Source: a virus | Virus record (IMG/VR): IMGVR_UViG_3300028837_000924 | Span: 1 to 22,380 of that record | DNA length: 22,380 nucleotides | Reading direction: 5' to 3' (one strand) | Part shown: positions 659-19,279 of the stretch, in pieces | Layout: each line of letters opens with the position of its first letter | Position numbering within the stretch: position 1 is the stretch's first letter | Translations under genes and position numbers: made by a program | The notes under the pieces: model-generated | Databases searched by the model: none | What the model was told of the DNA's origin: nothing | What the model saw: the letters and a program-made list of their open reading frames with translations, nothing else

Positions 659-1282
659 ATGCTAAAACTATTTTTTAACCTCGTTGTCCTCCTGAAGCTT
701 GGAGATATATCAAAGAAATGGAAAACAGAGAAATGTACCTGGGATATAGATAATTGTGAAACATACAACTGCCTGCCCTGGAAATTTGGTGAACTGCCTA
801 TGACAACTACTTACAGTAACCAGCATTCTTTTTCTCAGCAATATGGACGTTTCAGGGCTAAATTCAAAATGAACGAAAAGTGGTGCTGGTGGTTATTGCA
901 ATTAGAGAAAAACCAGTATCTTGAAATAGATCATTTTGAGATTTTCGATAAGCATGTAGGATTGTGTTCATGGAAGAACACTCACTTTAATTCACAGCGC
1001 AGAATCCCCTGGAGAGAGTTCATAAACCCAAAATGCGAAATACATATAGCTTTTATGAAGGACATTTACTCCAGAAGGCTCTTTGGATCCTCGCGTGTTC
1101 GTAAGTACATTCTCGAAAAACCACGGAGATATGAAATAATATGGAGAAAATGGTTTATCCTGTGGAAAGTAGATGGATGGCCTTGTGGGATAATGTTCAG
1201 GGATATACCACGACAGGATATGTATCCTATACTGTCAGGACCAGAGGAAAACGAAATACTGGAAATGCAAATAAGATTGTGA
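659..1282 (+). CDS. Glycoside hydrolase family 16-like (laminarinase-fold) protein
   Basis: The 207-residue protein carries the hallmarks of the family 16 beta-jelly-roll glucanases. There is a strand pair resembling YGRFRAKFKM (about 62-71). The catalytic-type motif E89-I-D91-H-F-E94 matches the ExDxxE signature, in which the first Glu is the nucleophile and the last the acid/base. A later segment, YEIIW...ILWKVDG (158-173), matches the usual family 16 strand near the C-terminus. Family members cleave beta-1,3 or beta-1,4 glucans, galactans or carrageenans. No signal peptide is evident, so it would act inside the cell, be released at lysis or ride on the virion. The C-terminus is short compared with typical catalytic domains of about 230-260 residues. 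It might be a lysis enzyme, a capsule depolymerase or a non-catalytic binding domain. Confidence 0.62.
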   Translation: MLKLFFNLVVLLKLGDISKKWKTEKCTWDIDNCETYNCLPWKFGELPMTTTYSNQHSFSQQYGRFRAKFKMNEKWCWWLLQLEKNQYLEIDHFEIFDKHVGLCSWKNTHFNSQRRIPWREFINPKCEIHIAFMKDIYSRRLFGSSRVRKYILEKPRRYEIIWRKWFILWKVDGWPCGIMFRDIPRQDMYPILSGPEENEILEMQIRL

Positions 1283-1297
1283 TCGCTGAAATAATTA

Positions 1298-1328
1298 TTG
1301 ACATTCTTAAAAAATACTTGTAACTTTG
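1298..1328 (+). promoter_or_regulatory. Bacteroidota-type promoter upstream of the terminase genes
   Basis: TTG at 1298-1300 and TAACTTTG at 1321-1328 are separated by 20 nt. This matches the -33 TTG / -7 TAnnTTTG form used by the primary sigma factor of Bacteroidota. It lies in the only sizeable gap in this part of the window (1283-1350), about 22 nt before a small gene that leads into the terminases. Transcription would start near 1334-1337. Confidence 0.7.
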
Positions 1329-1350
1329 TTATCTATAATCATTCTAAATA

Positions 1351-1479
1351 ATGACTAAGAAAGCTAAACTCATAGGACGCAATACTAAGGGGAAGCAAGC
1401 CAATGTTTACAAGTTCATAAGAAAAGATATTTCAGCTTCTCAGTTTATGAAACGGAACATGCCAAAGAAAAAGAAATAA
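1351..1479 (+). CDS. Small basic protein of unknown function
   Basis: This 42-residue reading frame starts with ATG and ends in a TAA whose last A is also the first base of the terminase small subunit start (TAATG). It is very rich in Lys and Arg (MTKKAKLIGRNTKGKQ at the start, MPKKKK at the end). That suggests a nucleic-acid-binding or otherwise charged peptide. It is the first gene after a good promoter and is joined by stop-start overlap to the packaging genes, which supports it as real. I do not recognise a family. Confidence 0.55.
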   Translation: MTKKAKLIGRNTKGKQANVYKFIRKDISASQFMKRNMPKKKK

Positions 1480-1904
1480 TGGCATACAACAAAACACAAT
1501 TAACAGAAAAGATAATCGAAGTTATCAAAGAACATAAATTCAGGAATCAAGCTGAATTGTTTGTTAACGAAGACTATGCCCCATGTTCAGAAAAAACATT
1601 TTACAATCATAAATTACAAGATTTACAGGAAATTAAAAAAGCTTTTGAAGACAGTAAGACAAAAAGAAAGTTAATAATGCTGAATAATTGGGAGCAATCA
1701 AAATCACCAGCTCTTCAAATTGCAGCATTTAAAATACTTGCCACCCCTGAAGAATTTGAGCGCCTTGTTTCTCAGAAATTAGATCACACTTCAAAGGGTG
1801 ATTCAATAAAACCTATACAGATACTTACAGACAATTCCGGAACATCTGATGAATTAAAAAAACTCATTGGTGATAAAGACAACTCCGATACTGCGAAAAA
1901 ATAG
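1479..1904 (+). CDS. Phage terminase small subunit
   Basis: The small terminase recognises phage DNA and recruits the large subunit to start packaging. The 141-residue length is normal for the family. The N-terminal half is helical with a probable helix-turn-helix region around residues 15-55. The segment ALQIAAFKILATPEEFERL resembles the central helices of many small terminases, which form the oligomerisation core. The acidic C-terminal tail could contact the large subunit. The gene overlaps the large terminase by 38 nt and directly precedes it, which is the classic order. Similarity is at the level of pattern and context, with no catalytic motif to anchor it. Confidence 0.72.
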   Translation: MAYNKTQLTEKIIEVIKEHKFRNQAELFVNEDYAPCSEKTFYNHKLQDLQEIKKAFEDSKTKRKLIMLNNWEQSKSPALQIAAFKILATPEEFERLVSQKLDHTSKGDSIKPIQILTDNSGTSDELKKLIGDKDNSDTAKK

Positions 1905-3024
1905 TAAGGCATACAGGGAAGGATACCAGCTTATTATTAACCAGGGAGGACAGGGGTCATCCAAAACATACTCAATACTTACACTGTTTTATATCCTGGC
2001 AAAAGTATCAAAACAACGACTAATATTTACTATCTGTTCTTATGCTTTGCCTCACCTTAAACTTGGAGCAATACGGGACTTTGAGGATATCCTTATCTCA
2101 GCCGGTGAAGACCTGGGAGCAATACATAATAAGTCAGATCACTTTTTTAAGATAGGTAATTCTATAATAGATTATTTTGGCATACGTGATAATTATTCAA
2201 AAGTAACAGGGCCACGTCGGGATTTCCTTTTTATCAATGAAGCAAACAATAAAGTAACCTATGATGATTTTGATCAGCTCAATCAGCGAACACATCAATG
2301 CACATTTGTAGACTATAACCCGCGATCTGAGTTCTGGTTGCATGATATGGTTATACCACACTTTAAGCATGCATTTATTAAATCTACATTCTTAGATAAT
2401 CCACATATACCAAAGGCAGAGATTGATAAGATACTATGGAAGAAAGACAAGCCACAGTTTGAAAATTGGTGGAGGGTGTATGGCCTGGGTGAAGTAGGAC
2501 AGCTCGAAGGAACGATACTGAGCAACTGGCGATATGGTGAGTTTGATGATTACCTGCCTTATCAATACGGCCTGGACTTTGGTTTCCATCCTGATCCTGA
2601 CTTCCTGGTTAAAACAGCCATTGACCGCAAAGCAAAAAAGATGTATTGGCATCAGTGCTTTATGGAAAACGAACAGAAACTACATGACCTAAAGGATAAT
2701 ATTGAGAAAAACGTAAACAGGAAAGATCTTATCATAGCTGACTGTGCCGATAAGAGACTAATAGCTGAATTAAAACAGATACTTAATATAAAAGCAGTAT
2801 CGAAGCGCGGGACTGTCTCGGAATGGCTTAGATTGCTTCAGGACTATGAGCATATTGTGACAGAGACAAGCTACGACCTAGCAAAAGAATTTAACAACTA
2901 TATATGGAACGATAAAAAGGCCGGTATTCCTATTGATGACTGGAATCATGGCATAGATGCAGGGAGATATACTTTTATGGATACACAGAAAGTCAGAAAA
3001 AAAGGCATGAAACGTGTTAATTAA
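1867..3024 (+). CDS. terL: Phage terminase large subunit (packaging ATPase/nuclease)
   Basis: This is the motor that pumps DNA into the prohead and cuts it. The ATPase half shows a Walker A-type loop GGQGSSKT (27-34), a Walker B segment FLFINEA (120-126) with the catalytic Glu125, and DYNP (139-142), probably the coupling region. The nuclease half shows YGLDFGFHPDPD (234-245), where Asp237 is likely a metal ligand, then ADCAD (291-295) and HGIDAGRY (361-368) with the other acidic residues. At 385 residues it is compact. There is no in-frame ATG near the start, so initiation must be at TTG 1867 or GTG 1870, inside the end of the small subunit gene. That suggests translational coupling. Confidence 0.93.
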   Translation: MVIKTTPILRKNSKAYREGYQLIINQGGQGSSKTYSILTLFYILAKVSKQRLIFTICSYALPHLKLGAIRDFEDILISAGEDLGAIHNKSDHFFKIGNSIIDYFGIRDNYSKVTGPRRDFLFINEANNKVTYDDFDQLNQRTHQCTFVDYNPRSEFWLHDMVIPHFKHAFIKSTFLDNPHIPKAEIDKILWKKDKPQFENWWRVYGLGEVGQLEGTILSNWRYGEFDDYLPYQYGLDFGFHPDPDFLVKTAIDRKAKKMYWHQCFMENEQKLHDLKDNIEKNVNRKDLIIADCADKRLIAELKQILNIKAVSKRGTVSEWLRLLQDYEHIVTETSYDLAKEFNNYIWNDKKAGIPIDDWNHGIDAGRYTFMDTQKVRKKGMKRVN

Positions 3025-3060
3025 ATTGATTCTTAATAGATAAAATACTATTTTAGTGTC

Positions 3061-3627
3061 ATGGATAAAGACTTCACAAGTACGGATAATGAATTATATA
3101 TGGCCGTAGGTACAAAGATTTCGATATACTATAAACAACAATTCATAGACTTTCTTAGAGATAATTTACCTTTGTATGGCAATATCCTGGATATAGGAGA
3201 TCGCAACCCATTGACAGAGAGATTAGAAAAAGAATTTAATGTAAATATTGACAGTACCTCAGGCGATCTTGATGAACTTCTTGTTTGCAAAGCTAAACAA
3301 TATGATATAGTTATATGCAGTCAGGTGATTGAGCATGTTTTTAATCCGCTGTTTTTACTTTTAAATATTAAATCAGTGATGAAGGACAGGGCAGCATTGA
3401 TACTCGCCACACCTATGAAGCCGTACTGGATAACACAAAGCACACGACACTTTCATGAGATGGATAAATACAGACTGTATAAATTAATTAAGCGTGCTGG
3501 ATTTACTATACAATATTCTAAGCAGCTATACCTATACAGGCGGTGGACATGGAGATCGTTTACCGGAGTAAGGCCATTCCTGAGAAGTTTTTATAAACGC
3601 AGGGTAATACTAATCCTAAGCAAATGA
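3061..3627 (+). CDS. SAM-dependent methyltransferase (class I)
   Basis: The 188-residue protein has a Rossmann-fold methyltransferase core. There is a motif I-like strand and loop NILDIGD (41-47), an acidic residue at the end of the next strand (around Asp64), and YDIVICSQVIEHV (81-93), the motif IV typical of methyltransferase 11/23-type enzymes. A late FHEMDKYRLYKLIKRAGF segment (131-148) resembles the substrate-side helix of that group. Motif I has only one glycine, so cofactor binding may be modified. These enzymes often methylate sugars or small molecules, which fits the following sulfo- and glycosyltransferases. The C-terminus is strongly basic. The gene starts 36 nt after the large terminase and overlaps the next gene by ATGA. 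Confidence 0.75.
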   Translation: MDKDFTSTDNELYMAVGTKISIYYKQQFIDFLRDNLPLYGNILDIGDRNPLTERLEKEFNVNIDSTSGDLDELLVCKAKQYDIVICSQVIEHVFNPLFLLLNIKSVMKDRAALILATPMKPYWITQSTRHFHEMDKYRLYKLIKRAGFTIQYSKQLYLYRRWTWRSFTGVRPFLRSFYKRRVILILSK

Positions 3628-3992
3628 ACAGACCTGTAATAATAGCTATTGACTTCGATGGTTGCGTTGTCACTCACCGATACCCACAGATAGGACAGAT
3701 GTTAGGCCAGGCGCGGTACATCATAAACAAGCTCTACGATGAAGGATATTTTATTATTATCTGGACCTGCCGGGGCGGAGTGGATCTTGTCAATGCAATA
3801 AATTGGATGGATGAGTTTGGAATAAAATACCACAATATAAATGAGAATGCACCCTATGATATGATCCATTTTAAGCCTGCACCAAAAATTTATGCCGATG
3901 TGTATATTGATGATCGTAACCTACAGGGCTTTCCTGGATGGGAAAAAGCTTATGAGATAATAAACAAACAATATGGCAATACTGACTTATGA
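3624..3992 (+). CDS. HAD-like hydrolase (small phosphatase)
   Basis: This 122-residue protein has the HAD motifs in order. Motif I is AIDFDGC with nucleophile Asp10 and Asp12; motif II is IIIWTCR with Thr48; lysines at 84 and 88 stand where motif III is expected; motif IV is ADVYIDDRN with Asp96/Asp97. There is no room for a large cap, so this is a minimal capless HAD domain of the kind seen in phage and Bacteroides proteins of about 120-150 residues. It should remove a phosphate from a small substrate. The gene overlaps the methyltransferase before it by 4 nt and the phosphoribosyltransferase after it by 20 nt, so the two may act on the same metabolite. The substrate cannot be read from the sequence. 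Confidence 0.78.
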   Translation: MNRPVIIAIDFDGCVVTHRYPQIGQMLGQARYIINKLYDEGYFIIIWTCRGGVDLVNAINWMDEFGIKYHNINENAPYDMIHFKPAPKIYADVYIDDRNLQGFPGWEKAYEIINKQYGNTDL

Positions 3993-4326
3993 CGAAGTAC
4001 ACATACTTGTTAATAACATCTGCGCTCAGATAATAAAAGCATCAGCAGACTATGACGGTGTTTATTGTATCCGGGGTGGCGGGCTTGTAGCTGGTGCGAT
4101 GATAGCCTATAAGCTGAATATACCTGTCACTAGCGTGTTCAATAAGCGTATGTTGATCGTAGATGATTGCATAATGACCGGCAGGACCATAAGGCCTTAT
4201 GTTGATTTAGGCATTGATATAGCTGTTTTGCGATGTCATGAGAGCAGGGTGCATCTATGTAGGTATTTTGGTGAGATGAAATCTAATGATTATATAACCT
4301 ATCCCTGGGAAGTGCTGAAAAAGTGA
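3973..4326 (+). CDS. Very short phosphoribosyltransferase-like protein
   Basis: The PRPP-binding signature LIVDDCIMTGRT (61-72), two acidic residues then T-G-x-T, is clear. A GGG loop at 35-37 fits the pyrophosphate-binding loop, and the end DYITYPWEV is like the last strand of xanthine-guanine type enzymes. At 117 residues it is much shorter than the usual 150-220. The stretch between the first sheet and the PRPP loop, which normally holds the flexible catalytic loop, is almost absent. It may therefore be a minimal purine-salvage enzyme, a PRPP-dependent modifier or a regulator. It overlaps the HAD gene by 20 nt and the sulfotransferase by 4 nt (GTGA). Confidence 0.75.
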   Translation: MAILTYDEVHILVNNICAQIIKASADYDGVYCIRGGGLVAGAMIAYKLNIPVTSVFNKRMLIVDDCIMTGRTIRPYVDLGIDIAVLRCHESRVHLCRYFGEMKSNDYITYPWEVLKK

Positions 4327-4955
4327 AGTACCTCAAATTATACGGCCTCCAGCGTTCAGGAACGAACTACATTAAATTCCTTTTAGAGCAGAACTTTGAT
4401 GTGTTTGTCCTTCAGAACTGGTTAGGATGGAAGCATGGCCGTGTCGAGTATCTTAAAGACAATGAAACACTATGGAGAGATTTATCCGTATGTACCCTTT
4501 CGACTGAACAAAAGGCAAGTATTAAGTTCTCCAATACTCCACGCGTAGCCATAAAGAAAAATGTACATGCCTGGATGGTGAGCTTTTATAAATACAAGCG
4601 ATTCAACTGGGGCAGGGACTATAAACATATCATTGATGCTTATTTCACAGCTAACAGGCACTATGAAAAACATTGCTGGATGGTAGACTATGACGACCTG
4701 CTGACACAGCCCTGCGTTGAGATGGAAGCTATGATGCATAAGTTTGACCTGTCACAGAGGTTGGATAAAAAAGCTTGGGTGACGGAATATGAAAAGACCA
4801 TGCCTCGCGGTGGTGACGATCACTCCGATTCATGGGCCGTGAAATACGAGAATCATAAGTTTAGCAGGTCTTACTACCTTGAAAAGAAATATCTTAGACA
4901 GATACCAAACCTGGGAGATATTAATAAATATATAAAAAAGCATTATGAAAAATGA
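4323..4955 (+). CDS. Sulfotransferase-like protein (P-loop type)
   Basis: The N-terminus LYGLQRSGTNYIKFLL places the loop G8-L-Q-R-S-G-T-N15 where PAPS-dependent sulfotransferases bind the 5'-phosphosulfate. The segment IKKNVHAWMVSFYKY (78-92) resembles the 3'-phosphate-binding strand and helix, with Lys79 in place of the usual Arg and Ser87 kept. These enzymes move sulfate from PAPS to a hydroxyl or amino group on sugars, lipids or proteins. A later basic region ending KKHYEK could bind substrate. It starts at a GTG overlapping the previous stop and ends with an ATGA overlap to a second sulfotransferase of different sequence. It is less canonical than the second copy, and a kinase-like P-loop protein is the main alternative. 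Confidence 0.65.
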   Translation: MKYLKLYGLQRSGTNYIKFLLEQNFDVFVLQNWLGWKHGRVEYLKDNETLWRDLSVCTLSTEQKASIKFSNTPRVAIKKNVHAWMVSFYKYKRFNWGRDYKHIIDAYFTANRHYEKHCWMVDYDDLLTQPCVEMEAMMHKFDLSQRLDKKAWVTEYEKTMPRGGDDHSDSWAVKYENHKFSRSYYLEKKYLRQIPNLGDINKYIKKHYEK

Positions 4956-5494
4956 TCTCGCACAAACATAAGTTCATATTTGTTCAGATAAACAAGACAG
5001 GCAATACGAGTATTCGCAAAACACTCTGCCCTGAGACAGGACGCGAGAACGAACACCGGGCAATAAGTTATTATGCACAGCAATACCCTAAAGTATTTGA
5101 TGAGTATTTTAAGTTTACCTTTGTTCGCAACCCCTGGGATAAGGTAGTCAGTCAATATGAGTTTAGAAGAGATCCTGCAAGATTCCCGGCTAACAATACC
5201 AGTAATATGAGTTTTGAACAGTTTATTAACAATCCTAACGGCAGGCCGTTGCAGAATCAGCTTGACTGGGTAACCATAAACCAGATAATAGCTGTTGACT
5301 GGATAGGTAAATTTGAATACTTGCAGGATGATTATAATGAGCTTTGTGATATTTTAGGAGTAAAACGTAAGATATTGGAACACTACAACAAGACAGAGCG
5401 CAGGCCATACAGGGAATATTACAATGACAAAACAAGGGACATAGTTGCACAGATATTTTCAAGAGATATTGATTATTTTGGCTATCGGTTCTAA
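4952..5494 (+). CDS. Carbohydrate sulfotransferase (Sulfotransfer_2-like)
   Basis: Both PAPS-binding motifs are clear. FVQINKTGNTSI (10-21) is the 5'-phosphosulfate loop with Lys15, and FTFVRNPWDKVVSQY (55-69) is the 3'-phosphate site, with Arg59 and Ser67 in the expected places. The ending, with a tyrosine-rich stretch, a DKTRDIVAQIF helix and DYFGYRF, is typical of the family that includes chondroitin and heparan type sulfotransferases. The 180-residue size is compact, without a signal anchor, so it would act in the cytoplasm on a soluble or lipid-linked glycan or on a virion protein. PAPS would have to come from the host, as no PAPS synthesis gene is seen here. It closes the first half of the cargo block, 40 nt before the glycosyltransferase genes. 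Confidence 0.85.
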   Translation: MISHKHKFIFVQINKTGNTSIRKTLCPETGRENEHRAISYYAQQYPKVFDEYFKFTFVRNPWDKVVSQYEFRRDPARFPANNTSNMSFEQFINNPNGRPLQNQLDWVTINQIIAVDWIGKFEYLQDDYNELCDILGVKRKILEHYNKTERRPYREYYNDKTRDIVAQIFSRDIDYFGYRF

Positions 5495-5510
5495 GAAATT
5501 TGTATATTTG
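5478..5510 (+). promoter_or_regulatory. Bacteroidota-type promoter upstream of the glycosyltransferases
   Basis: TATATTTG at 5503-5510 fits the TAnnTTTG -7 element exactly. TTG at 5478-5480, inside the end of the sulfotransferase gene, lies 22 nt upstream as a -33 element. The spacing is slightly longer than the commonest 19-21. It sits in the 40-nt gap before the gene at 5535, so the glycosyltransferases could be transcribed separately from the genes before them. Confidence 0.58.
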
Positions 5511-5534
5511 TTTTTAATCTAAAGAGAATAGATT

Positions 5535-6335
5535 ATGAAACTCTACTTTCCTTCCGGCATGACGCATCACGGCGAAAATGCTATCAAGCATCTCGATTTC
5601 GAGCAATACACCGGCGAAGACCATAAAGAGCCTGCAATGTTCTGGTGTTATTTCTTAGAAGACTATGAATATATGCTGGAACACAAGGGTAAGAAGTTTA
5701 TTTTCTGGCATGGCTCCGATGTGCTTCGACTGCGCGAAAATCCTGAGCTGAGAAAATACCTCCGTCCTATGCACGAGCAGGACATTACCCATGTATGCCA
5801 TAGCCAGCTGTTACAGGATGAGCTTGCAGAGCTTGGGTTATACGCACTTGTACGGCCTACGTTTTGGGGTGATGTAAAGAAATACAAACCTACTTATGAA
5901 TATTCCGATAAGCCTGAGATTTATCTAACGTCTTCACCAGGCAGGGAGATCGAATACGGCGAGGGGTATGTGATCGCGCTGTCAAAAGCCTTTCCTGAGT
6001 GTCGGTTCCATGTGTATGGCAATGATGGACATTCTACTGATAACCTGTTTTTTCATGGCCGTGTGCCTGAGGATCAGATGGATAAAGAGATTGTAGATAT
6101 GCAGATTTGTTTACGTATGAATAAGCACGACGGATTTAGCCAGACCTCAATGAAAGCCTTGCTGTTAGGACAGTACCTGATAACCAGGATTGATTATGAT
6201 TATATTCATTATGCAGAAAAATATCAAGAGATTGTACATTTGATAGATTGTTATATAGATAATGATACGATGACAGATGATTATTATGATCCTGAAAATA
6301 CCACAAAACAATTTAATAACTTTGATTATATATGA
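5535..6335 (+). CDS. Glycosyltransferase, GT-B fold
   Basis: The 266-residue protein looks like a GT-B enzyme. The first half ends with FIFWHGSDVLRLR (55-67), a common N-domain to linker pattern (HGSD). The second half has a Rossmann strand and turn FHVYGNDG (158-165), FFHGRVPEDQM (172-182), then HDGFSQTSMKALLLGQYLIT (198-217). That last stretch matches the donor-sugar nucleotide region of families like GT4, except that the usual second Glu of the EX7E motif is replaced (SMKALLLG). It would transfer an activated sugar to an unknown acceptor. It starts 40 nt after the sulfotransferase, with its own promoter candidate, and overlaps the GT2 gene by ATGA. The replaced Glu may reduce or alter activity. 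Confidence 0.7.
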   Translation: MKLYFPSGMTHHGENAIKHLDFEQYTGEDHKEPAMFWCYFLEDYEYMLEHKGKKFIFWHGSDVLRLRENPELRKYLRPMHEQDITHVCHSQLLQDELAELGLYALVRPTFWGDVKKYKPTYEYSDKPEIYLTSSPGREIEYGEGYVIALSKAFPECRFHVYGNDGHSTDNLFFHGRVPEDQMDKEIVDMQICLRMNKHDGFSQTSMKALLLGQYLITRIDYDYIHYAEKYQEIVHLIDCYIDNDTMTDDYYDPENTTKQFNNFDYI

Positions 6336-7297
6336 GAAAACTCACAGCCTCGATAATATGCAAGAATGAAGAAGAGATGCTCCCTATCATGCTCGACTCG
6401 ATAAAAGGCATTGATGAGATCATAGTTCTTGACACCGGATCAACGGATAAATCCATAGAGATAGCCAAGAGTTACGGCGCTAAAGTATTTAAAGATCCCT
6501 GGCGGGATGATTTCAGCTATTCGCGTAATGCTTGTAAAAAGCATTGTACGGGTGACTGGTTGCTTATTATCGACTGTGATGAGGTTCTTGAATGCACCAT
6601 TGAACAGATCAAGTCAATGATAAATTCAGAATGGGCAAACAGGTATGATCTTTTGCTATTTGATGTTCAGACAGGATTAGAGCGTAACGAACAACCCAGG
6701 CTTATAAAGAACAAAAAAGATATATGGTATTACGGTGCAGCTCATAACCTGCCACGTTATTATCCTGATGGACTGGACTCACCGCATACCTCACGGATGA
6801 TACCTAATGATAAGACTTTTAAGACTACGTTCAGGGTAACGGCTAACTGCTCACCCAATCACGCAAAAGATCCTGACAGGACACTCAGGATACTTGAAAC
6901 AGCACTGAGCAAAGAGCCTATGAATACACGCAATCTTTATTATTATGTCCGTGAGTGGCTTAACAGGAAAGATCCGGCAAGGGCGCTGTATTGGTTGGGT
7001 AGGTATTTTAAGATAGCTCAGATGACCAATGAGCGCGCCGATGCTCATTTTATCGCTGCCACATGCCACTTGGATCTTGGTGATCCTGTCTCTGCTATTG
7101 ATGAATGTATGAACGCTATCAAGATACTACCTACGTTTAAAGCTCCATATCAGTTGTTAGAGATGCTTGCTCACGACACTATGAAACAGCAATGGCATAA
7201 GATGGCCCAGTCAGCTAATAATGCCGGTGTACTTTTTGTCAGGGATATGCACCCTAAACAGAAACCTAAAAGTAATTTGAAAGTTGTAAAGAAATAA
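6332..7297 (+). CDS. Glycosyltransferase family 2 with C-terminal TPR-like helices
   Basis: The N-terminal domain has the GT-A family 2 marks: ASIICKNEEEMLP (6-18) for the first strand with Asn12-Glu13, IIVLDTGSTDKS (30-41), a DDFSYSRN segment (59-66), and WLLIIDCDEVL (76-86), where Asp81-Cys-Asp83 is the metal-binding DxD. From about residue 185 the protein is helical (RTLRILETAL, RALYWLGRYF, AIDECMNAI), resembling tetratricopeptide repeats. This GT2 plus TPR layout is known from bacterial enzymes that glycosylate peptides or surface glycans. The reaction is transfer of a sugar from a nucleotide sugar, on the cytoplasmic side. The C-terminal tail is Lys-rich. It is the last cargo gene and lies 13 nt before the first structural gene. 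Confidence 0.87.
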   Translation: MRKLTASIICKNEEEMLPIMLDSIKGIDEIIVLDTGSTDKSIEIAKSYGAKVFKDPWRDDFSYSRNACKKHCTGDWLLIIDCDEVLECTIEQIKSMINSEWANRYDLLLFDVQTGLERNEQPRLIKNKKDIWYYGAAHNLPRYYPDGLDSPHTSRMIPNDKTFKTTFRVTANCSPNHAKDPDRTLRILETALSKEPMNTRNLYYYVREWLNRKDPARALYWLGRYFKIAQMTNERADAHFIAATCHLDLGDPVSAIDECMNAIKILPTFKAPYQLLEMLAHDTMKQQWHKMAQSANNAGVLFVRDMHPKQKPKSNLKVVKK

Positions 7298-7310: not shown

Positions 7311-7934
7311 ATGACTTTAACTATCTGTTGCCCTGCTCCGACATATTTGGAAAGTGCGGTGACAACCTTAAATCCATGTCCTGCCGACGTAGGACAGATT
7401 CAAAAACTTGTTTTCTGGCGTACCGGTCAATCCATTGCCTCTGTAGCTACGGCCATTATCTCCACTACCTGGACCACACTGCTGGCAGCAACGGACGACA
7501 CGAAAGCCCTTGTGACTCCATTCGTTCATAACCCTGACATACCGGCGGGAGATCCTCGTGAGTTTGGAGGCGGTAATGAAACGCGGTGGGGTGCTTCGCT
7601 GAGAAAAGGTGCAAACTCACCCGTGCTGACATTCTCCATGCTGGCAGAGGACCAGGATATTATTGCAGCACTAAAGGAACTGCGGTGTGAAACCCTTGAC
7701 GTGGTAATGATAAACGAGGCCAACCAGTTTATTTATTCCGACCTGCAAGGCGGGACATCAGCCTTTTTTGGCTTCGAGGTGGTTCCCGGATCACTGTTTG
7801 TAGGTGATAAGAAAATCGGAGGCTTCGAGGACTGGGATGCTAACATGCTTCAGTTCAACCTGAAGCCTAACTGGTCAGATACGCTTGAAATAAGTGCCGA
7901 GACAACGTTCGCTTTAAGCATGGTAAATTCGTAA
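7311..7934 (+). CDS. Probable major tail tube protein
   Basis: This 207-residue protein is beta-rich, without a signal peptide or membrane segment. It has an early low-complexity TTLNPCPADVGQIQKLVF, a long middle with GGGNETRWGASLRKG, then AEDQDIIAALKELRCE and a C-terminal strand series ending FALSMVNS. Size, composition and lack of motifs fit a structural subunit such as a tail tube protein. The usual slot for that gene, just before the tail chaperone, is empty in this window, which supports the idea that the tube gene sits here instead. Start ATG follows the glycosyltransferase by 13 nt and has no clear ribosome binding site. The assignment is inference; a head decoration or other virion protein is possible. 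Confidence 0.45.
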   Translation: MTLTICCPAPTYLESAVTTLNPCPADVGQIQKLVFWRTGQSIASVATAIISTTWTTLLAATDDTKALVTPFVHNPDIPAGDPREFGGGNETRWGASLRKGANSPVLTFSMLAEDQDIIAALKELRCETLDVVMINEANQFIYSDLQGGTSAFFGFEVVPGSLFVGDKKIGGFEDWDANMLQFNLKPNWSDTLEISAETTFALSMVNS

Positions 7935-7935
7935 T

Positions 7936-8169
7936 ATGAAAACTATAACATTAGTTTATAAAAAGGAACAGCTGGAACTTGGTTTTATCCATGCCCAGAA
8001 TATATTGCAGGGACAGGCAGACGGAAGATATAAGACCGAATGGCAAATATCCAAAGATTCAGGTTACGAATTTAAAGATAATGGAATTATCAAGCGAACA
8101 AATAAAAGAACTGATACGGACAAGGCCGCACCAAGCAAGGATCCAGGCGGGGATAAAGCACCAGAATAG
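7936..8169 (+). CDS. Small hypothetical protein preceding the portal
   Basis: The 77-residue protein starts one base after the stop of the previous gene. Its first 55 residues look like a folded small domain (MKTITLVYKKEQLELGF, then YKTEWQISKDSGYEF), while the last 20 are charged and Pro/Gly-rich, so probably disordered. It overlaps the chosen portal start (8081) by 89 nt in another frame, which is a long overlap for real genes. The N-terminal half looks like a genuine protein and the spacing to the previous gene is operon-like. No family recognised. Confidence 0.5.
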   Translation: MKTITLVYKKEQLELGFIHAQNILQGQADGRYKTEWQISKDSGYEFKDNGIIKRTNKRTDTDKAAPSKDPGGDKAPE

Positions 8170-9805
8170 GCTGTCTTTTCATACACAGACAACACTTAAT
8201 AAGTCGGACTTTAAAGAAGCCTATCATGAGTTCCGGGAATGGATAAGCAGCGATAAGCCTGAGTTATTGCCAAGTGATAAGGCTATACGTATAATGCAGT
8301 TGATACGTCCGCCAATATCTACCGTTGAGCTTACCGAATCCATCTACTCGAAGCTGTATAAGGTCTTTTTCTCACAGGACTCATTTACTCATTATCAGTT
8401 TGCCAGCGATGAGCTGGTATCCGACTGGAGTGAGTACCGTGAGGTTAATTTCTGGCCTACGAAGGGATTTGAGGCAATAGAGAATGCCATAGATTCCGTC
8501 TGGGCAGTGGTATTTGATACCGAGAGCCTGTCTTCACGGCCCGCACCACGCAACCAGTTGATTAACATAAAAGATGTTATTGACCTCAGCGTGGATGATA
8601 ATAACAACCTTCACTATGTTATCTTTCAATATGCCGGTAAGGTGCTTGCCTATGACTCAAAGAGTATCCGTGTTTATCCTGTCCTGGATAAAGGCATGGG
8701 GCGCAAGGCTCAAAAGAAACAGTTTGATCAGATGACAGCTGTCAATATCGGCGAGGTAGAGATTGAGTTTAATCACGGACTCAACTACACTCCGGCGCGT
8801 ATGATGTGGACCGAAAAACTTGAATCGGATAATTTTATCAACAAAGAAGCGCCGATCACAAAGGAGCTGTCAGACCTTGACTGGCTGTTGTTGCATAAGG
8901 CAGCTAAGAAATACATGGACCTGTCTAATGCCTATCCTATCACAGTGGCCTATGAGTCGGACGATGATTCTGAAGATCCTGACCGCACAGATGATAAAGA
9001 CCGATCGCCGGGAGCAAAGAAAACAGACGGATACCGGTTCATGGGACCAGGTACACATATCGAAGTACCCGCACCAGCCGACAAGCAGGACTCAGACCTT
9101 ATGGAGAATCCCGTACAGCTGATCTCTCCTGAAGTAGATACCCTTACGTGGCATGTGACAGAAGAGAAAAGGCTCGAAAACAAGATATTCCGGTCGGTAG
9201 TGGGTACGGATGTAGAGGTACGCGATGACCAGGCCAAAAACGAAAAGCAGATAGATGCTTCATTTGAGAGCCAGTTGTCCGTACTTCTAAGGATAAAGCG
9301 CAACTTTGAAATTATACATAAGTTTGCCGACACTACTATCTGCCGGTTGCGTTATGGTGATTCATTCGTAGGATGTACGATAGATTACGGCACTCAGTTT
9401 TTCATTAAGACAGTCACCCAGCTGCATGAAGACTATAAGCTTGCCAAAGAAACCGGCGCAAACGATATTGTCCTCACAAAGATCACGGACGGCATCCTGG
9501 ATGCCAAGTTCCGCGATGATAAGTCAAGCCGACAGCGTGCAGAAGTGATCCGTGACCTCGATCCACTGCCTGAAAAAACAACCGAAGAGGCTATCATGAT
9601 ACACGAAAAAGGAGGTATTGATAAAATTAATTTTATTATCAAAACTAATTTACTTAATTTTGTTAGGCGGTTTGAACGTGAAAACATACCGATAACTGAA
9701 TTTGGTTCTAATATTGATTACGATACAAAGATCAGAACCATTCTAAATAAATTTATAAGTTATGCAAGCGAACAAAGACAACTCGATTCAGATCAAGGAG
9801 AATGA
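8081..9805 (+). CDS. Phage portal protein
   Basis: The portal forms the ring at the special vertex through which DNA enters. The frame is open from 7979, but the natural start is ATG 8081, giving 574 residues that begin MELSSEQIKELIRTRP, followed by HQARIQAGIKHQNRLSFHT, like the N-termini of Bacteroidota phage portals. The body shows the expected succession: an early helical clip region (IYSKLYKVFFS), WPTKGFEAIENAIDSVWAVV, then a long segment with MGPGTHIEVPAP and EVDTLTWHVTEEKRLENKIF, and a stem-like helix SFESQLSVLLRIKRNFEIIHKF. An Asp/Lys-rich insertion (DDDSEDPDRTDDKDRS) is probably a loop. The size is right for the family and position relative to scaffold and capsid fits. It overlaps the next gene by 44 nt. 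Confidence 0.83.
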   Translation: MELSSEQIKELIRTRPHQARIQAGIKHQNRLSFHTQTTLNKSDFKEAYHEFREWISSDKPELLPSDKAIRIMQLIRPPISTVELTESIYSKLYKVFFSQDSFTHYQFASDELVSDWSEYREVNFWPTKGFEAIENAIDSVWAVVFDTESLSSRPAPRNQLINIKDVIDLSVDDNNNLHYVIFQYAGKVLAYDSKSIRVYPVLDKGMGRKAQKKQFDQMTAVNIGEVEIEFNHGLNYTPARMMWTEKLESDNFINKEAPITKELSDLDWLLLHKAAKKYMDLSNAYPITVAYESDDDSEDPDRTDDKDRSPGAKKTDGYRFMGPGTHIEVPAPADKQDSDLMENPVQLISPEVDTLTWHVTEEKRLENKIFRSVVGTDVEVRDDQAKNEKQIDASFESQLSVLLRIKRNFEIIHKFADTTICRLRYGDSFVGCTIDYGTQFFIKTVTQLHEDYKLAKETGANDIVLTKITDGILDAKFRDDKSSRQRAEVIRDLDPLPEKTTEEAIMIHEKGGIDKINFIIKTNLLNFVRRFERENIPITEFGSNIDYDTKIRTILNKFISYASEQRQLDSDQGE

Positions 9806-10182: not shown

Positions 10183-10608
10183 ATGAAAAAAATCCTAATT
10201 TTATTTACATTTCTTTTTGCTCTGTGCCTGGGTATCCAATCCCAGAGCGCAACAGTCTTAAAGTACAAGATGCCAGATGTGACCGTCAGCGGTACAGGCA
10301 CAGGATATACGATATTTCCTATCGTGGCCGGTGAGTATGATGTTTCGATACAGATGATCCCTGCTTTAGCCGGTACGGGGGATTCGTTGATATTTTCGCA
10401 TATCATGTACCTGTCAGATTCGTATAGCGATAACGTATGGACGGCGGTATCTTCGGCTGATACAGTGTCAACAGCGACCGATTCAGATGGTATAGTGTGG
10501 TGGGCTGATCTCAAACCCTTACGTATTAAGGCTATTTATACCGGTATATCTACCGATACGATCACTATCACGCCATACGCAGTTTATAAAAAACATGCAA
10601 ACGAATAA
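10183..10608 (+). CDS. Secreted beta-rich protein, first of two tandem paralogues
   Basis: The 141-residue protein starts with a strong signal peptide (MKKILILFTFLFALCLGIQS, cleavage likely before Gln-Ser-Ala). The mature part is a beta-sandwich-like sequence containing VSGTGTGYTIFP, AGEYDVSIQMIPALAGTGDS and a C-terminal ITPYAVYKKHANE. It aligns along its whole length with the next gene, sharing QSATV, SGTGT, GEYDVS, IPALAG, NVWTA and VYKKHA. Export is unexpected for a gene between portal and scaffold. It would be released to the periplasm or outer membrane during infection. It may protect or alter the host envelope, or be a virion part with a signal-like start. No domain family is recognised. 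Confidence 0.75.
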   Translation: MKKILILFTFLFALCLGIQSQSATVLKYKMPDVTVSGTGTGYTIFPIVAGEYDVSIQMIPALAGTGDSLIFSHIMYLSDSYSDNVWTAVSSADTVSTATDSDGIVWWADLKPLRIKAIYTGISTDTITITPYAVYKKHANE

Positions 10609-10612
10609 AAAT

Positions 10613-11035
10613 ATGAAAAGATTAATTTTTATACTGATTGCTCTGTTTGCTGTTGTAGCACTTCATGCACAGAGCGCAACCGTTATCCCGCAAAAGATGT
10701 CTACCTTAACGTTGAGCGGGACAGGAACGGCAACCGTAACATTTCCGACCGTACAAGGCGAATACGATGTATCGCTTCAACTGATCCCTGCCCTGGCAGG
10801 CAGCGGCGATTCATTGCATTTCAGCCATGTGATATACCAATCCAATCATGATTATGATAATGTATGGACAGCCATCACCTCTTCGGCTACGGTATCTAGC
10901 ACGACCGATGCCGACGCGCTGGTTTCGATAACAGATTTTAAGGGGTTACGACTAAAGGCTATCTGCACCGGCATTGGTACGGACACATCCTCAGTAGTGC
11001 CTTATTGTGTTTATAAGAAACATGCTGAAGAGTAA
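10613..11035 (+). CDS. Secreted beta-rich protein, second of two tandem paralogues
   Basis: The frame opens at 10595, but ATG 10613, four bases after the previous stop, gives a proper signal peptide (MKRLIFILIALFAVVALHAQ, cleavage before or after the Gln). The result is 140 residues. The mature sequence mirrors the first copy: LTLSGTGTATVTFP, QGEYDVSLQLIPALAGSGDS, DNVWTAITSSATVSSTTD and the same YCVYKKHAEE ending. Divergence at the DNA level is large, so the duplication is old and both copies have been kept under constraint. It is a probable exported partner of the first copy, with the pair possibly forming a hetero-oligomer. Confidence 0.75.
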   Translation: MKRLIFILIALFAVVALHAQSATVIPQKMSTLTLSGTGTATVTFPTVQGEYDVSLQLIPALAGSGDSLHFSHVIYQSNHDYDNVWTAITSSATVSSTTDADALVSITDFKGLRLKAICTGIGTDTSSVVPYCVYKKHAEE

Positions 11036-12027: not shown

Positions 12028-12567
12028 ATGACATTAGCTGCAACCGTTTTAGATGAGTTCAGACTTGCTTACGAGAGAAGCAATATGGACGCGCATGAAC
12101 ACCGTTTGAGTATCTACGGTGCTTATGAAACATTTCGCAAAGATACTGCAAACCTTATTCCCGGATACCAGGAGCTTGAACTTGGCCGTAAGTATGAAGG
12201 GCAGACCGTGTCTGTGCCTGTCATTAACCGTGCCACCTACACCACAAGCTCATCCCGGAGCTGTACCGCCAAGACAAAGGAAAATACATCGGCCTATTCA
12301 GATGTGACCTTTACCACAATTGAGACTGGTTTTCAGATGATCCCGGCACAGTACGAGAGCAACATGATTAAGTACCAGGCTGACTTCAATCGCAAGATGG
12401 AAGATGTTCAGCGTACTTTCTTAGCTGCCCTTGATACGGCCGCCATCACTAACCTGAACACCAATAAGAGCGCGGTCAACAATGCGAGAATCGCGCCTTC
12501 CAGTTTGGTGAAGTATCACTGGCATACACGCGTAGCCAGACCGTACCGACAGGCTATCGCGATGTGA
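12028..12567 (+). CDS. Major capsid protein, N-terminal part (gene appears broken)
   Basis: The first 152 residues look like the N-terminal half of a Bacteroidota phage major capsid protein: YERSNMDAHEHRLSIYGAY, then SVPVINRATYTTSSSRSC, a QMIPAQYESNMIKYQADF helix region and FLAALDTAAITNLNTNKS at the end of the spine-like helices. After about 12483 the reading becomes implausible (ARIAPSSLVKYHWHTRVARP) and stops at TGA 12565-12567. In the -1 frame from 12468 the sequence continues with capsid-like residues. The two parts joined give about 280 residues, and the segment that should follow NTNKSAVNN seems missing. A frame-changing deletion near 12480-12495 explains this best, with either a real mutation or an assembly collapse behind it. 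Confidence 0.75.
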   Translation: MTLAATVLDEFRLAYERSNMDAHEHRLSIYGAYETFRKDTANLIPGYQELELGRKYEGQTVSVPVINRATYTTSSSRSCTAKTKENTSAYSDVTFTTIETGFQMIPAQYESNMIKYQADFNRKMEDVQRTFLAALDTAAITNLNTNKSAVNNARIAPSSLVKYHWHTRVARPYRQAIAM

Positions 12568-12869
12568 CCTATTCGATGCCCCAGGCTTCGCTGGGTTATC
12601 TCTCATGGGTAGATATTGACTCACGGCTTAATCATAAGTCAGGCGATGGAAAAGAATGGTTCGTCCAGCTCCTTCCGTTGGTTGGCCATGACGTCGGAGT
12701 GCTGTATCAATCAACTTGCGGGGATAAGTCAGGCACGCTGACCGGGCTGGATGCTACGCTGGTAGAGAGCTGGCAGTTTTCGTTTGATTATGCGTTCGTG
12801 AACGCTTACAACAGCGATACTTCCACTTATCCAGGCACCATTTACAGGGCTGACTTCAGTAAGACCTGA
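12468..12869 (+). CDS. Major capsid protein, C-terminal part (out of frame)
   Basis: Open from 12468 after a stop at 12465, this frame reads sensibly from about 12489: NRAFQFGEVSLAYTRSQ, VPTGYRDVTYSMPQASLGYL, SWVDIDSRLNHKSGDG, KEWFVQLLPLVGHDVGVLYQ, VESWQFSFDYAFVNAYNSD and a final FSKT. The pattern of a hydrophobic GVLYQ strand, acidic loop and SFDYAF strand fits the C-terminal part of a phage capsid subunit. The first in-frame ATG at 12564 is too far in to be a natural start, as good coding sequence lies before it. It is not a free-standing gene. Downstream genes begin at 12872, so the capsid gene ends here. Confidence 0.72.
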   Translation, partial: ERGQQCENRAFQFGEVSLAYTRSQTVPTGYRDVTYSMPQASLGYLSWVDIDSRLNHKSGDGKEWFVQLLPLVGHDVGVLYQSTCGDKSGTLTGLDATLVESWQFSFDYAFVNAYNSDTSTYPGTIYRADFSKT

Positions 12870-16500: not shown

Positions 16501-19279
16501 GATAATTGAACCTGGCAATCCTTTTGATGAACTCGAAAAGGGAGTGGATTCTGCTATTAAGACTATTGATAAACTAATTGATACGCTTAAAAAGGCAGCT
16601 AAATCGCTAAAGGAATTTACCTCAAAGCAAAATCCTGCAATCAAAGAACAGCAAAAAAACATTGAGAAATCCGCAAAAACAACCGAACAATATGCAAGGG
16701 ATGTTCAAAAGCTCACCAAAACAAGGAAAGAGGCTGTAAGGGTTCAGAAAGAGATAACGAGAGAATCTGAAAGAGAATCACTAGCAAGAAGGAAGCTAAG
16801 AAAAGAGATACAAGATGGCATCAGAGCTACGGATGCTCAGAAAGGATCACTGGAAAGAAACAGGATAGCATTAAGAAAACTCACCGATAGATACAATAAA
16901 GCGGCACCACAGGCAGCAGAGAAGATGTCACGGCGTATTGATGGATTGACTAATAAGATCAAAAAACAAGAAGGTGCAATCGGTAAACATCAGCGAAACG
17001 TAGGTAATTATAAATCAGTCTTTGCCAATGCAGGTAAGTCGATTGTTTCATTTGGTGCGAGTATGTTAGGGGTGACTGCGATTATAGGCGCAGGAATAAG
17101 GATTTTAAGAAATGCAATAACTACAACATTATCCTTTGATCAGGCAATGGCAGACGTAGGAGCTATATCTGGAGCAACGGCTGAAGAGATGGATAATCTT
17201 AGAAAATCTGCTAAAGCATTAGGAGGGACTACTAAATTTACAGCTTCTCAGGTAGCAGGGTTGCAAAAAAATCTAGCCAAACTTGGATTTACTACAGATG
17301 AAATATTAAATTCTTCAAATGCCATTCTTTCATTAGCTGCTGCAACTGGTGAAGATTTGGCGAGAAGTGCCGAAGTTGCTGGATCCGTATTAAGAGCATT
17401 CAATCTCGATGCTACACAGATGACAAGGGTTGTAGATACTATGGCTGCTGCATTTTCCGGTTCGGCTCTTGACCTTGATAAATTTTCTGTTTCAATGCGT
17501 ACTGTTGCTCCGGTTGCTTTTGCTTTTGGTTTCTCTATTGAGCAAACAACATCACTATTAGCTGGATTAGCTAATGCCGGATTTGATGCATCTATGGCAG
17601 GAACATCATTAAGAAATATACTTTTAAATCTGGCAGATACCAATGGAGCATTGGCTAAGGAGTTAGGAGGTGCGGTTAATACTTTTGATGAATTTATTCC
17701 TGCTTTGATAAAATTAAGGAATAAAGGCGTTGATCTTAATAAGACATTAGAATTAACTGATAAAAGAAGTGTTGCTGCTTTTAACCGGTTCTTACAGGGT
17801 GCAGAATTTACAAGAGAATTTAGGATAGAATTAGAAAAAGCGCAGGGTGCTGCTGATGAAATGGCCGAGAAACAATTAGATACCCTCAAAGGTGATCTGA
17901 CTATAATGAAAAGTGCATGGGAAGGATTAACTATATCAGTAAAAGATAATACTGGTGGAAACGAAGCAGCACGCGAAGGAGTGCAATTATTAACTAAGGC
18001 TTTCCAGGGATTAACATTTGAACAAAAAGAGAATAAAAAATGGTGGGATACTACGAAAAAATCATTACAGGGTTTTGCGATTCCTCTACGATTAATAGGT
18101 AAATTAAGGGAAGAACAGCAAGATTTAAATGAAGAAACAGAAACATACGTAAGCAGATTACCTGAAATTATCGCAGCCGCAAATCAAATGATAGAACAAG
18201 CAAAAGCAAAAATAGAACTAGAAAGAGCCTTAACACTCGAAAAATTAATATCACAAGCACAAGAAAGAGATCGGAGCGCTGCAATAAAAAAATCATTTGA
18301 AGCAGAAGAAAGAGAGTGGGTTGCAGGGGTGAGAAAAACATCTAAAGCCGTAAAAGAGGAAATAGATTTGACAGATTTCAATTTAGGATTTAGTCTATTT
18401 GGCCCTGATGACGAGACAGAAGAAGAGCAAAGAGCAGATGCAATACTTAACGCAGATATAAAAATAACAAATGCAAGCATTGCAGAAGCAGAGAGGGCAA
18501 GAAGGGAAATGGAGAGGATTCAGAATGAATATTTACAATTTCAGGAATCTACATTCAAACAAGGATTAGCAGGCTTTAGTAATATTGCTATGCTTGCACA
18601 TGACATAGAATTACAGGCATTGGAAGAAAAAAAACAGAGACAGATAGAAGCAGGAACATTCAGTCAAAGAGCGTATAACAAAGAGCTTCAGGACCTTGAA
18701 AAATTTAATGCCGCCAGGAATGCTATTCTTAATGCACAGGCTATTATTGATCAGGTCAGGGCATTAAAGCAGACTATTATTACTATAGTACAGGGGACAG
18801 CACAAACGGCAAAGGTAGGCTTTCCGCAGAACATACCTTTATTGATCGGATTTGCCGGACAGGTTGCGGGACTAATAGCTACAATAGCAAGCATTAAGTT
18901 TGCTGAGGGCGGACACGGTGAATTAGGCAGTGAGGGTACTGTTTTGAGTGGTGAGCGTCATCATTCGGGTGGTGTAAATCTTGGAGAGATAGGCGAAGCC
19001 GAAAGGGGTGAGTATTTTGGTATCGTTAATCGCGCCATGACACGGCGTTACTCTAATGACCTGCCTCAGATATTTAATACATTGAACAAAGGAACATTTC
19101 ATAACGTATTCGCACGGGCTAATCAACTGCACGATGATTCAGGTATTGGTCATGATCCGTATACACGAAAGATTTATGAAACAATGACCAACCAGCCGGT
19201 AATATACCAAGATTCTAAGGGCGATACGGTGATGAGATTTCCGGACGGTAAGAAACGTACAATAAGGGCGCAGGCATGA
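16472..19279 (+). CDS. Tail tape measure protein
   Basis: At 935 residues this sets tail length. It has an N-terminal charged coiled-coil region (about 20-180), a hydrophobic segment (190-213), then a TP901-type core from about 220 (FDQAMADVGAISGATAEEM, NLRKSAKALGGTTKFTASQ, LSLAAATGEDLARSAEV, AGLANAGFDASMAGTSLRN). A second hydrophobic stretch near 787-812 precedes a conserved ending with GGHGELGSEGT, ERHHSGGVNLGEIGE and EYFGIVNRAMTRRYSNDLP, characteristic of Bacteroidota phages. It starts at GTG 16472 inside the chaperone. Codon use in about 16500-18650 favours TTA and AGA more than the genes around it, and the last part (from about 18660) is like its neighbours. This may be a recombination mosaic. 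Confidence 0.92.
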   Translation: MAEQPIRHDEIIEPGNPFDELEKGVDSAIKTIDKLIDTLKKAAKSLKEFTSKQNPAIKEQQKNIEKSAKTTEQYARDVQKLTKTRKEAVRVQKEITRESERESLARRKLRKEIQDGIRATDAQKGSLERNRIALRKLTDRYNKAAPQAAEKMSRRIDGLTNKIKKQEGAIGKHQRNVGNYKSVFANAGKSIVSFGASMLGVTAIIGAGIRILRNAITTTLSFDQAMADVGAISGATAEEMDNLRKSAKALGGTTKFTASQVAGLQKNLAKLGFTTDEILNSSNAILSLAAATGEDLARSAEVAGSVLRAFNLDATQMTRVVDTMAAAFSGSALDLDKFSVSMRTVAPVAFAFGFSIEQTTSLLAGLANAGFDASMAGTSLRNILLNLADTNGALAKELGGAVNTFDEFIPALIKLRNKGVDLNKTLELTDKRSVAAFNRFLQGAEFTREFRIELEKAQGAADEMAEKQLDTLKGDLTIMKSAWEGLTISVKDNTGGNEAAREGVQLLTKAFQGLTFEQKENKKWWDTTKKSLQGFAIPLRLIGKLREEQQDLNEETETYVSRLPEIIAAANQMIEQAKAKIELERALTLEKLISQAQERDRSAAIKKSFEAEEREWVAGVRKTSKAVKEEIDLTDFNLGFSLFGPDDETEEEQRADAILNADIKITNASIAEAERARREMERIQNEYLQFQESTFKQGLAGFSNIAMLAHDIELQALEEKKQRQIEAGTFSQRAYNKELQDLEKFNAARNAILNAQAIIDQVRALKQTIITIVQGTAQTAKVGFPQNIPLLIGFAGQVAGLIATIASIKFAEGGHGELGSEGTVLSGERHHSGGVNLGEIGEAERGEYFGIVNRAMTRRYSNDLPQIFNTLNKGTFHNVFARANQLHDDSGIGHDPYTRKIYETMTNQPVIYQDSKGDTVMRFPDGKKRTIRAQA

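Follow-up and report, generated by a model that had tools for sequence, protein, structure and literature searches.

A variable cargo slot between the terminase and head genes of a phage as a possible locus for glycosylation and sulfation of virion proteins

The viral record IMGVR_UViG_3300028837_000924 of IMG/VR (the window; complete at 22,380 bases and a fragment of a phage genome) carries seven tightly packed genes between its terminase and its head and portal genes. They occupy a cargo slot whose conserved core is a family 2 glycosyltransferase followed by tetratricopeptide-type repeats (GT2-TPR). The reading that we prefer, to which we give about an even chance, is that the slot is a locus for glycosylating virion proteins, particular to this clade, in which the decorating enzymes can be exchanged and, in the window, transfer sulfate from host 3'-phosphoadenosine 5'-phosphosulfate (PAPS). 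An earlier note on this DNA had proposed a pathway that builds and decorates a glycan. That role fits and both of its sulfotransferases are supported, but a conserved seven-gene pathway is not what the relatives hold: among those compared, the full set is seen in the window only, and the others pair the GT2-TPR core with other accessory genes.

The block spans 3061-7297, with all seven genes on the + strand, and its reading frames lie at the coordinates given in the earlier note, which had described overlapping or closely spaced non-structural genes between terminase and structural genes. Neighboring genes overlap by 4 bases at four junctions and by 20 at one, a 40-base gap lies at the sixth, and MP2 follows the block after 13 bases. 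Profile matches place the terminase large subunit upstream and MP2/'major head protein', then portal, downstream. The features that carry the argument are as follows (genes are named by their first position; A3, A4 and A5 are family alignments).

1867..3024, + strand: terminase large subunit, left border of the cargo slot (phrog_5653 5e-26; phrog_2 1.4e-22)
7311..7934, + strand: MP2/'major head protein', right border of the slot (phrog_8193 2.8e-40)
8015..9805, + strand: portal protein, used for phage placement (phrog_7376 9.4e-132; tree)
6332..7297, + strand: GT2-TPR glycosyltransferase, conserved core of the slot (Glycos_transf_2 1.2e-17; A3 profile to GmaR 2e-38, to SunS 1.2e-27)
6572..6580, + strand: DCD, the DXD motif of the GT2 domain (D81 and D83 invariant in 8/8)
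4323..4955, + strand: divergent PAPS-type sulfotransferase of the GLQRSGTNY family (alignment A4, profiles, PDB profile matches, predicted fold)
4344..4370, + strand: GLQRSGTNY, 5'-phosphosulfate-binding motif of 4323 (invariant in 9/9 of A4, by construction, members having been fetched with the motif)
4557..4583, + strand: K79, W84 and S87, 3'-phosphate-binding region of 4323 (invariant in 9/9 of A4, outside the fetching pattern)
4952..5494, + strand: Sulfotransfer_2-family sulfotransferase (Sulfotransfer_2 1e-16, 62.3 bits against a cut-off of 22; 25 related viral loci)
4985..5011, + strand: QINKTGNTS, 5'-phosphosulfate-binding (5'-PSB) motif of 4952 (alignment A5; consensus HIPKTGGTS)
5126..5152, + strand: RNPWDKVVS, 3'-phosphate-binding (3'-PB) motif of 4952 (R59, N60 and S67 invariant in 9/9 of A5)

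The block, called cargo in the earlier note, is an insertion between terminase and MP2. In six annotated relatives (B124-14, PDS1, P2559Y, TCUEAP2, AS73P1, BF503P1) the terminase adjoins MP2 across a gap of 90-414 bases that holds none of the block genes and, in P2559Y, one small opposite-strand gene. The terminase-MP2 distance, 4,290 bases in the window, was measurable in 64 of 72 IMG/VR relatives (L041-L112; L-numbers denote the viral loci or records used in the comparison, mostly uncultured contigs), exceeding 1,000 bases in four and 1,900 in none. It ranges from 1,175 to 6,664 in the nine closest relatives found (L033-L040 and L135, portals 41-53% identical). These nine and the window form a single clade in a quick portal tree (SH-aLRT support 99; 84 of 97 portals kept after removal of duplicates and short ones).

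The GT2-TPR gene lies between terminase and MP2 in the window and in all nine of these relatives, the L040 copy being interrupted, and in several it is the sole gene of the slot. In a sister group it is found within the structural module, downstream of the homologue of window gene 13426: directly before or near the 15731 homologue in L041, L042, L044 and L046; in L137 it stands at the end of the contig. Only L042 gave a detectable 15114 homologue just upstream. Among 49 whole records, hand-chosen and mostly longer, the gene is present in 14/14 clade and sister records and in 0/35 others. That sample left out sister-group records L043, L045, L047, L136 and L143; a GT2 is seen in L045 and L047, and none in the short fetched stretches (4.2-6.4 kb) of L043, L136 and L143, although L136 is labeled in the portal tree as part of the sister 'GT2_tail' group. 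The linkage of a glycosyltransferase gene to structural genes, one of the features expected of a phage virion glycosylation system, is found in the slot, at the sister loci and across the 49 records.

The accessory genes each have a different distribution among relatives. The slot of L033 and L034 holds a GT9 gene (heptosyltransferase-type), and that of L034 also a Sulfotransfer_2 protein and a Fib_succ_major domain protein, the latter (6203-6709) with a lipoprotein-like start by eye. The terminase beside the same MP2 and portal varies as well: compared with that of the window it is 54% identical in L034 and ~29-33% in L035, L036, L039 and L135, and five terminase queries found no match to that of L033. 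Because the terminase differs between relatives that share MP2 and portal, the packaging end of these phages recombines.

What might the core enzyme act on? Its assignment in the earlier note as a GT2-TPR enzyme is borne out by the Glycos_transf_2 match, the invariant DXD motif and the TPR-type repeats; the repeat part matches TPR_19 at 8.1e-4, below the cut-off of that family, and the A3 profile matches include designed TPR proteins. The four best PDB sequences for this profile, over ~185-250 profile positions, are GmaR, two SunS entries (the second at 8.4e-27) and 7msk (1.5e-22), which we take to be a peptide glycosyltransferase. The next-best glycosyltransferase is a teichoic acid enzyme (8.9e-8), and such others cover ~75-130 positions. 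Against the SunS equivalog model (NCBIfam TIGR04195) 6332 scores 61.3 bits, below the cut-off of 350, and by sequence it is a relative of SunS, the sublancin S-glycosyltransferase, not a SunS. By the same measure it is closest to protein glycosyltransferases, and analogy with these relatives suggests transfer to a protein. Like 6332, GmaR (the Listeria flagellin O-GlcNAc transferase, GlcNAc being N-acetylglucosamine) and SunS have a GT2 domain with DXD followed by TPR-type repeats; 6332 differs in being shorter than GmaR and in lying inside a phage structural module. GmaR transfers GlcNAc to flagellin, and its TPR region has been proposed to recognize the protein acceptor (available part of PMC9638930).

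GT2-TPR relatives occur in 18 phage records, including PaBG, S-SRM01 and Bacillus phage SPBc2, whose yolJ is presumably SunS. Synechococcus phage S-SRM01 (MW015081.1), which holds one of them, is also assigned a sulfotransferase (available part of PMC10580990).

In other phages the family is associated with fiber genes. Of 174 confirmed GT2-TPR relatives in viral contigs 80 were kept for comparison, and Gly-X-Y runs of 8 or more, here called collagen-like, are present at 14/32 GT2-TPR loci versus 2/43 weak-GT2 loci, 2/74 portal-control loci and 0/25 sulfotransferase loci. With the GT2 proteins clustered at 70% identity, a collagen-like neighbor accompanies 13/18 clusters of at least 200 bits versus 2/47 below (p 4.5e-8); the corresponding figures are 13/41 versus 2/24 at 100 bits (p 0.036) and 13/23 versus 2/42 at 150 (p 4.9e-6). 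The association was not predicted and was found while neighbors were being tested, the bit-score threshold being picked afterwards. The groups of other phages exclude L153, L155, L157 and L164 (which are L034, L035, L039 and L042 again), L232 and L233; L170, a capsid relative of the window without a collagen-like run, was kept among them. Some of the neighbors scanned (57 of the 59 selected, at 15 of 28 loci) match tail fiber and collagen-like tail families, single families matching up to 10 of the 57. Ten scanned singly gave five without a match, two strongly matching tail fiber (L165, L175), two matching a virion structural family (L174, which also matches tail families, and L172) and one matching a family of unknown function (L178). 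None of the fetched stretches of the 14 loci with collagen-like runs holds a window-type portal or MP2, and L165 gives a partial terminase match (32%); over these stretches the loci (within L154-L185) look like other phages, of several lineages.

Both sulfotransferases are placed inside the sulfotransferase fold, as the earlier note required, 4952 by a profile match above cut-off and 4323 by profiles and a model. The same note had credited 4952 with two canonical PAPS motifs. Its 3'-PB motif is canonical; its 5'-PSB motif is not fully so, keeping K, T, G, T and S and departing from the consensus at three positions, of which the P to N change is also seen in L002 (we take 5'-PSB and 3'-PB to be the usual names of these motifs). 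Relatives of 4952, up to 41% identical, are encoded at 25 of 27 candidate viral loci, near copies included, with two or more such genes at 13 of the 25, and in three phage records (27-32% identity). The 74 neighbors at 10 of the 25 loci include Epimerase (4), GDP_Man_Dehyd (3), GLF (2) and Caps_synth (2) members, together with glycosyltransferase families. Virus contigs L002-L013 and L026 (41-222 kb) each have between two and six Sulfotransfer_2 genes, frequently arranged in tandem and close to genes for sugar biosynthesis.

For 4323, proposed earlier as a second, divergent sulfotransferase, profiles, PDB matches and predicted fold agree. The protein itself reaches Sulfotransfer_3 at 2.3e-4 (21.9 bits, below the cut-off of 27), and within its family (A4) 7/9 members match Sulfotransfer_3 (best 3e-8) and 4/9 Sulfotransfer_1 at E 0.01. 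Of the 29 matches of the A4 profile to PDB sequences (up to E 10, best 2.1e-4), 28 are sulfotransferases or entries that we presume to share their fold, and one is a protease. An AlphaFold2 model built on A4 (pLDDT 69.9, pTM 0.71, confidence scores for local structure and overall topology) replaced an unusable single-sequence model (pLDDT 35). In Foldseek its rows 1-20 are all sulfotransferases, tyrosylprotein sulfotransferases first, with a best E of 2.1e-3 and none at 1e-3; VIA-align, a second look at Foldseek's own rows, gives sulfotransferases for 50/50 listed entries at Z 9.1-11.8 (SULT enzymes up to 11.8; best root-mean-square deviation 3.5 over 181). The modeled fold of 4323 is that of a sulfotransferase; fold alone does not establish activity or substrate. 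Pattern scans with 4323 alone found no relatives in viral or genome contigs, nor did tblastn in phages; a search of 32 records with 4323 was also empty, though such a result says nothing about absence. A scan for GLQRSGTNY-type motifs gave 22 loci. At L127:5876-7142 two genes of this family adjoin.

An adenosine 5'-phosphosulfate kinase gene was found in none of nine records searched (the window being a fragment), versus 11 positives among 14 control genomes, Bacteroides ihuae among them, and PAPS is assumed to be supplied by the host. In Bacteroides, putative PAPS genes (BT_0411-0415) are described along with the sulfotransferase BT_0416, which suggests that Bacteroides-type hosts can supply PAPS; BT_0416 acts on cholesterol and is chromosomal, and is likened here by description only (available part of PMC9417993).

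The remaining genes of the block are the following.

3061..3627, + strand: class I S-adenosylmethionine-dependent methyltransferase (Methyltransf_23 7.6e-8, above cut-off)
3624..3992, + strand: haloacid dehalogenase (HAD)-type phosphatase, BT0820-like (PDB 2obb 9e-21; NF046079 3.3e-31; phrog_1238 2.9e-33)
3973..4326, + strand: small phosphoribosyltransferase-like protein (Pribosyltran 2.1e-5, below cut-off; phrog_8995 1.5e-7)
4159-4188, + strand: VDDCIMTGRT in the 3973 protein, which we take to be a motif resembling the phosphoribosyl pyrophosphate loop
5535..6335, + strand: GT-B-like glycosyltransferase, by eye (homologue in L036)

The class I methyltransferase had been recognized before, and its profile match agrees; a relative (L041:1628-2254) adjoins another GT2 gene outside the slot, and none was found in the slot of any relative compared. 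The GT-B call for 5535 is by eye, the protein having no match in Pfam, PHROGs, NCBIfam or PDB sequences. Its homologue L036:6938-7780 is 41% identical, lies in the same slot and overlaps its GT2 by 4 bases; the pair recurs in L233, a near copy of L036. The HAD and phosphoribosyltransferase-like genes, left unnamed in the earlier note, are identified here. Against NF046079 (the BT0820 family) 3624 scores 108.5 bits, below the cut-off of 165, and is a relative only; a homologue of 3973 in Flavobacterium phage immuto (31%) sits in a 7-deazaguanine gene cluster. In six of the seven block proteins the hydropathy mean over 19 residues never exceeds 1.43, and for this reason action in the cytoplasm is plausible; the methyltransferase peaks at 1.75.

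The gene identities, one predicted fold, the insertion, the conserved core, its distribution over the clade and the fiber-gene association in other phages were computed, and from them we infer activities, an acceptor, donor sugars, an order of steps, a use of host PAPS and a benefit. Synthesis would begin with GT2-TPR, which would link the initial sugar to a Ser, Thr or Cys residue on one of the particle proteins; the TPR region would help in choosing this acceptor, much as has been suggested for GmaR with flagellin. Chain extension would probably fall to the GT-B-like enzyme, host PAPS would serve 4952 and 4323 as sulfate donor, with sulfation perhaps at two positions, and the methyltransferase may methylate a sugar. 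Extension and sulfation would take place in the cytoplasm and precede particle assembly. Because the accessory enzymes vary between relatives, different phages would make different glycans, with possible effects on adsorption, on recognition by surface-binding factors or on the stability of the particle. Where the earlier note had left the target among a virion protein, a host polymer and a small molecule, the first of these is somewhat favored here, the core being closest to protein glycosyltransferases and lying in the structural module. More tentatively, the product might be a sulfated, perhaps methylated, O- or S-linked glycan on the phage's own particle, the first sulfated bacteriophage glycoprotein, made by a fixed SunS/GmaR-type glycosyltransferase with exchanged decorators, the same family glycosylating collagen-like fibers in many phages.

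Several observations weigh against virion-protein glycosylation with sulfation. Sulfotransfer_2 was found in 2/13 clade and sister records searched, window included, and searches near GT2-TPR genes with the A5 and A4 profiles (E 1e-5) gave no sulfotransferase in the GT2-TPR loci except L034's own; a wider iterated profile added one match, in the weak-GT2 locus L223. No obvious role in making a glycan can be given to the HAD and phosphoribosyltransferase genes, which the model leaves unexplained, and the hydropathy peak of the methyltransferase is borderline for a membrane segment. The virion-side arguments, gene position and fiber association, are indirect, and the acceptor cannot be read off from the relationship with SunS and GmaR. 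In the window clade a collagen-like gene is present in L039 only (1/10; 17111-17839, between the 15114 and 15731 homologues); the window has no such run, but it is a 22 kb fragment whose last open reading frame, lying past the tape measure gene, is cut off by the end of the record. Our estimate stops at an even chance because acceptor and chemistry are unseen and the sulfotransferase lies outside the conserved core. As to the history of that gene, the window and L034 sulfotransferases are joined in 0/200 bootstrap trees with either tree; two separate gains are not claimed, since an approximately unbiased test on 20 hand-chosen rows of 49 does not reject one origin (p 0.159).

Do seven such genes serve one pathway? 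That they are independent morons gathered at a recombination hot spot is the alternative that survives best, and we think it unlikely. It would account for a full set seen in the window only, the separate distribution of each accessory gene and the recombining terminase region, and the HAD and phosphoribosyltransferase products suit nucleotide or sugar-phosphate metabolism better. Unexpected of morons are a GT2-TPR gene in every clade member examined, a GT-B-like/GT2 pair kept in L036 and its near copy, and a second phage, L034, with a sulfotransferase gene in this slot; moreover, five of the seven genes encode enzyme types that modify glycans or other acceptors.

Alternatively, the enzymes may modify the host surface (lipopolysaccharide, capsule or an outer-membrane protein), blocking superinfection or keeping progeny off debris. 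Phage glycosyltransferases that alter host O-antigen are well known, a heptosyltransferase-type GT9 gene shares the slot in L033 and L034, and 4952-like genes of large virus contigs lie among sugar-nucleotide and capsule-type genes. Set against this are the likeness of the core to protein glycosyltransferases (the GtrB-like family phrog_841 is matched only weakly, at 5.4e-5), the want of a hydrophobic stretch in six of seven block proteins and the location in the structural module, and on balance a host-surface target seems rather improbable to us.

A hypermodified DNA base, made by enzymes acting on nucleotides or bases, is very unlikely. Glycosyltransferase- and sulfotransferase-based phage nucleotide modification systems have been described (Iyer et al. 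2013, cited in the available part of PMC10829341), and the immuto relative of 3973 lies among 7-deazaguanine genes. Yet no base-oxidizing or thymidylate-synthase-like core gene is present among the window genes scanned (9762, 12564 and 12872 being outside the scan and the record a fragment), the GT2-TPR resembles protein glycosyltransferases, and the block sits among structural genes. We find it hardly credible that the target is a small peptide, secreted or bound to the particle, which receives a sugar in the way SunS glycosylates sublancin and is sulfated afterwards: SunS, 7msk (presumably a peptide glycosyltransferase) and SPBc2 yolJ (presumably SunS) are among the relatives of the core, but no peptide precursor or export gene was recognized in the block, where no dedicated search was made, and several relatives carry GT2-TPR alone in the slot.

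Virion-protein glycosylation with sulfation, the preferred reading, has partial parallels. Freeman et al. (2023) are said to have described virion glycosylation of mycobacteriophages. As proposed here, phage-encoded glycosyltransferases are thought to decorate capsid proteins there, in a different phage group; the available text mentions no sulfotransferase (PMC11256854). Phage sulfotransferases are found in cyanophages and uncultured Caudovirales (BFVD) and in Stenotrophomonas phage DLP_6, and OM43 phages carry one whose function is called unclear (available part of PMC10580990). They are PAPS-type enzymes of tailed phages, as here, and in the available accounts no linked protein glycosyltransferase is shown, none having been searched for there; the window differs in that adjacent genes of one operon, next to the head and portal genes, represent two different sulfotransferase families. 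The N-glycan pathway of Halobacterium employs two different sulfotransferases, which modify sugars within a single protein-linked glycan (available part of PMC11980604), and is likened here by description only, the system being archaeal N-glycosylation. Phage sulfotransferases and virion glycosylation are thus each known, and their combination looks new: a literature search of titles and abstract starts, with most subscription journals outside its coverage, found, among the papers listed, none that connects sulfotransferases with glycans of phage virions.

In the phage collection 75 records match the portal, with 31.8-34.8% identity among the 40 listed. Because the phages named there, apart from one 'Bacteriophage sp.', infect Flavobacterium, Bacteroides, Parabacteroides, Croceibacter, Elizabethkingia and Alistipes, a Bacteroidota host is likely, as judged from isolate phages only; a pattern-limited portal search of genome contigs found no prophage relative. 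The G+C content is 0.36-0.42 in the block genes, 0.49 in MP2, 0.44 in the portal, 0.38 in the terminase and 0.39 in the tape measure gene, and composition alone does not mark the block as foreign because terminase and tape measure gene are likewise low. Promoter-like sites (14 versus 22.6 expected) and terminator-like sites (4 versus 4.3) show no excess.

The major capsid gene (12028-12869) is split into two reading frames that abut near 12480, and ~63 residues of the intact L033 protein are absent between the two matched parts, possibly an assembly error or a real variant. Assembly errors in the record are possible because of this oddity; all seven block genes have open frames despite it. In the head module, 10183-10608 and 10595-11035 form a tandem pair of paralogues that share 56% identity, begin with stretches resembling signal peptides and contain 21-23% Ser+Thr; judged by sequence, their products are possibly exported or decorated particle proteins. 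Single counterparts are seen in L033, L034 and, by eye, maybe L041, and none in L035, L039 or L135. A by-eye likeness of 659-1282 to glycoside hydrolase family 16 (GH16), from EIDHFE, which we take to be a GH16 motif, is unsupported, with no Pfam or PDB sequence match.

If virion-protein glycosylation with sulfation is what the slot encodes, phages would control particle charge and recognition through sulfation. The link between GT2-TPR and collagen-like genes, if true, would offer a general handle for finding glycosylated phage fibers. Sulfotransferases are here tied to a protein-type glycosyltransferase beside virion genes, and the proposal can be tested directly as sulfated glycopeptides on particles.

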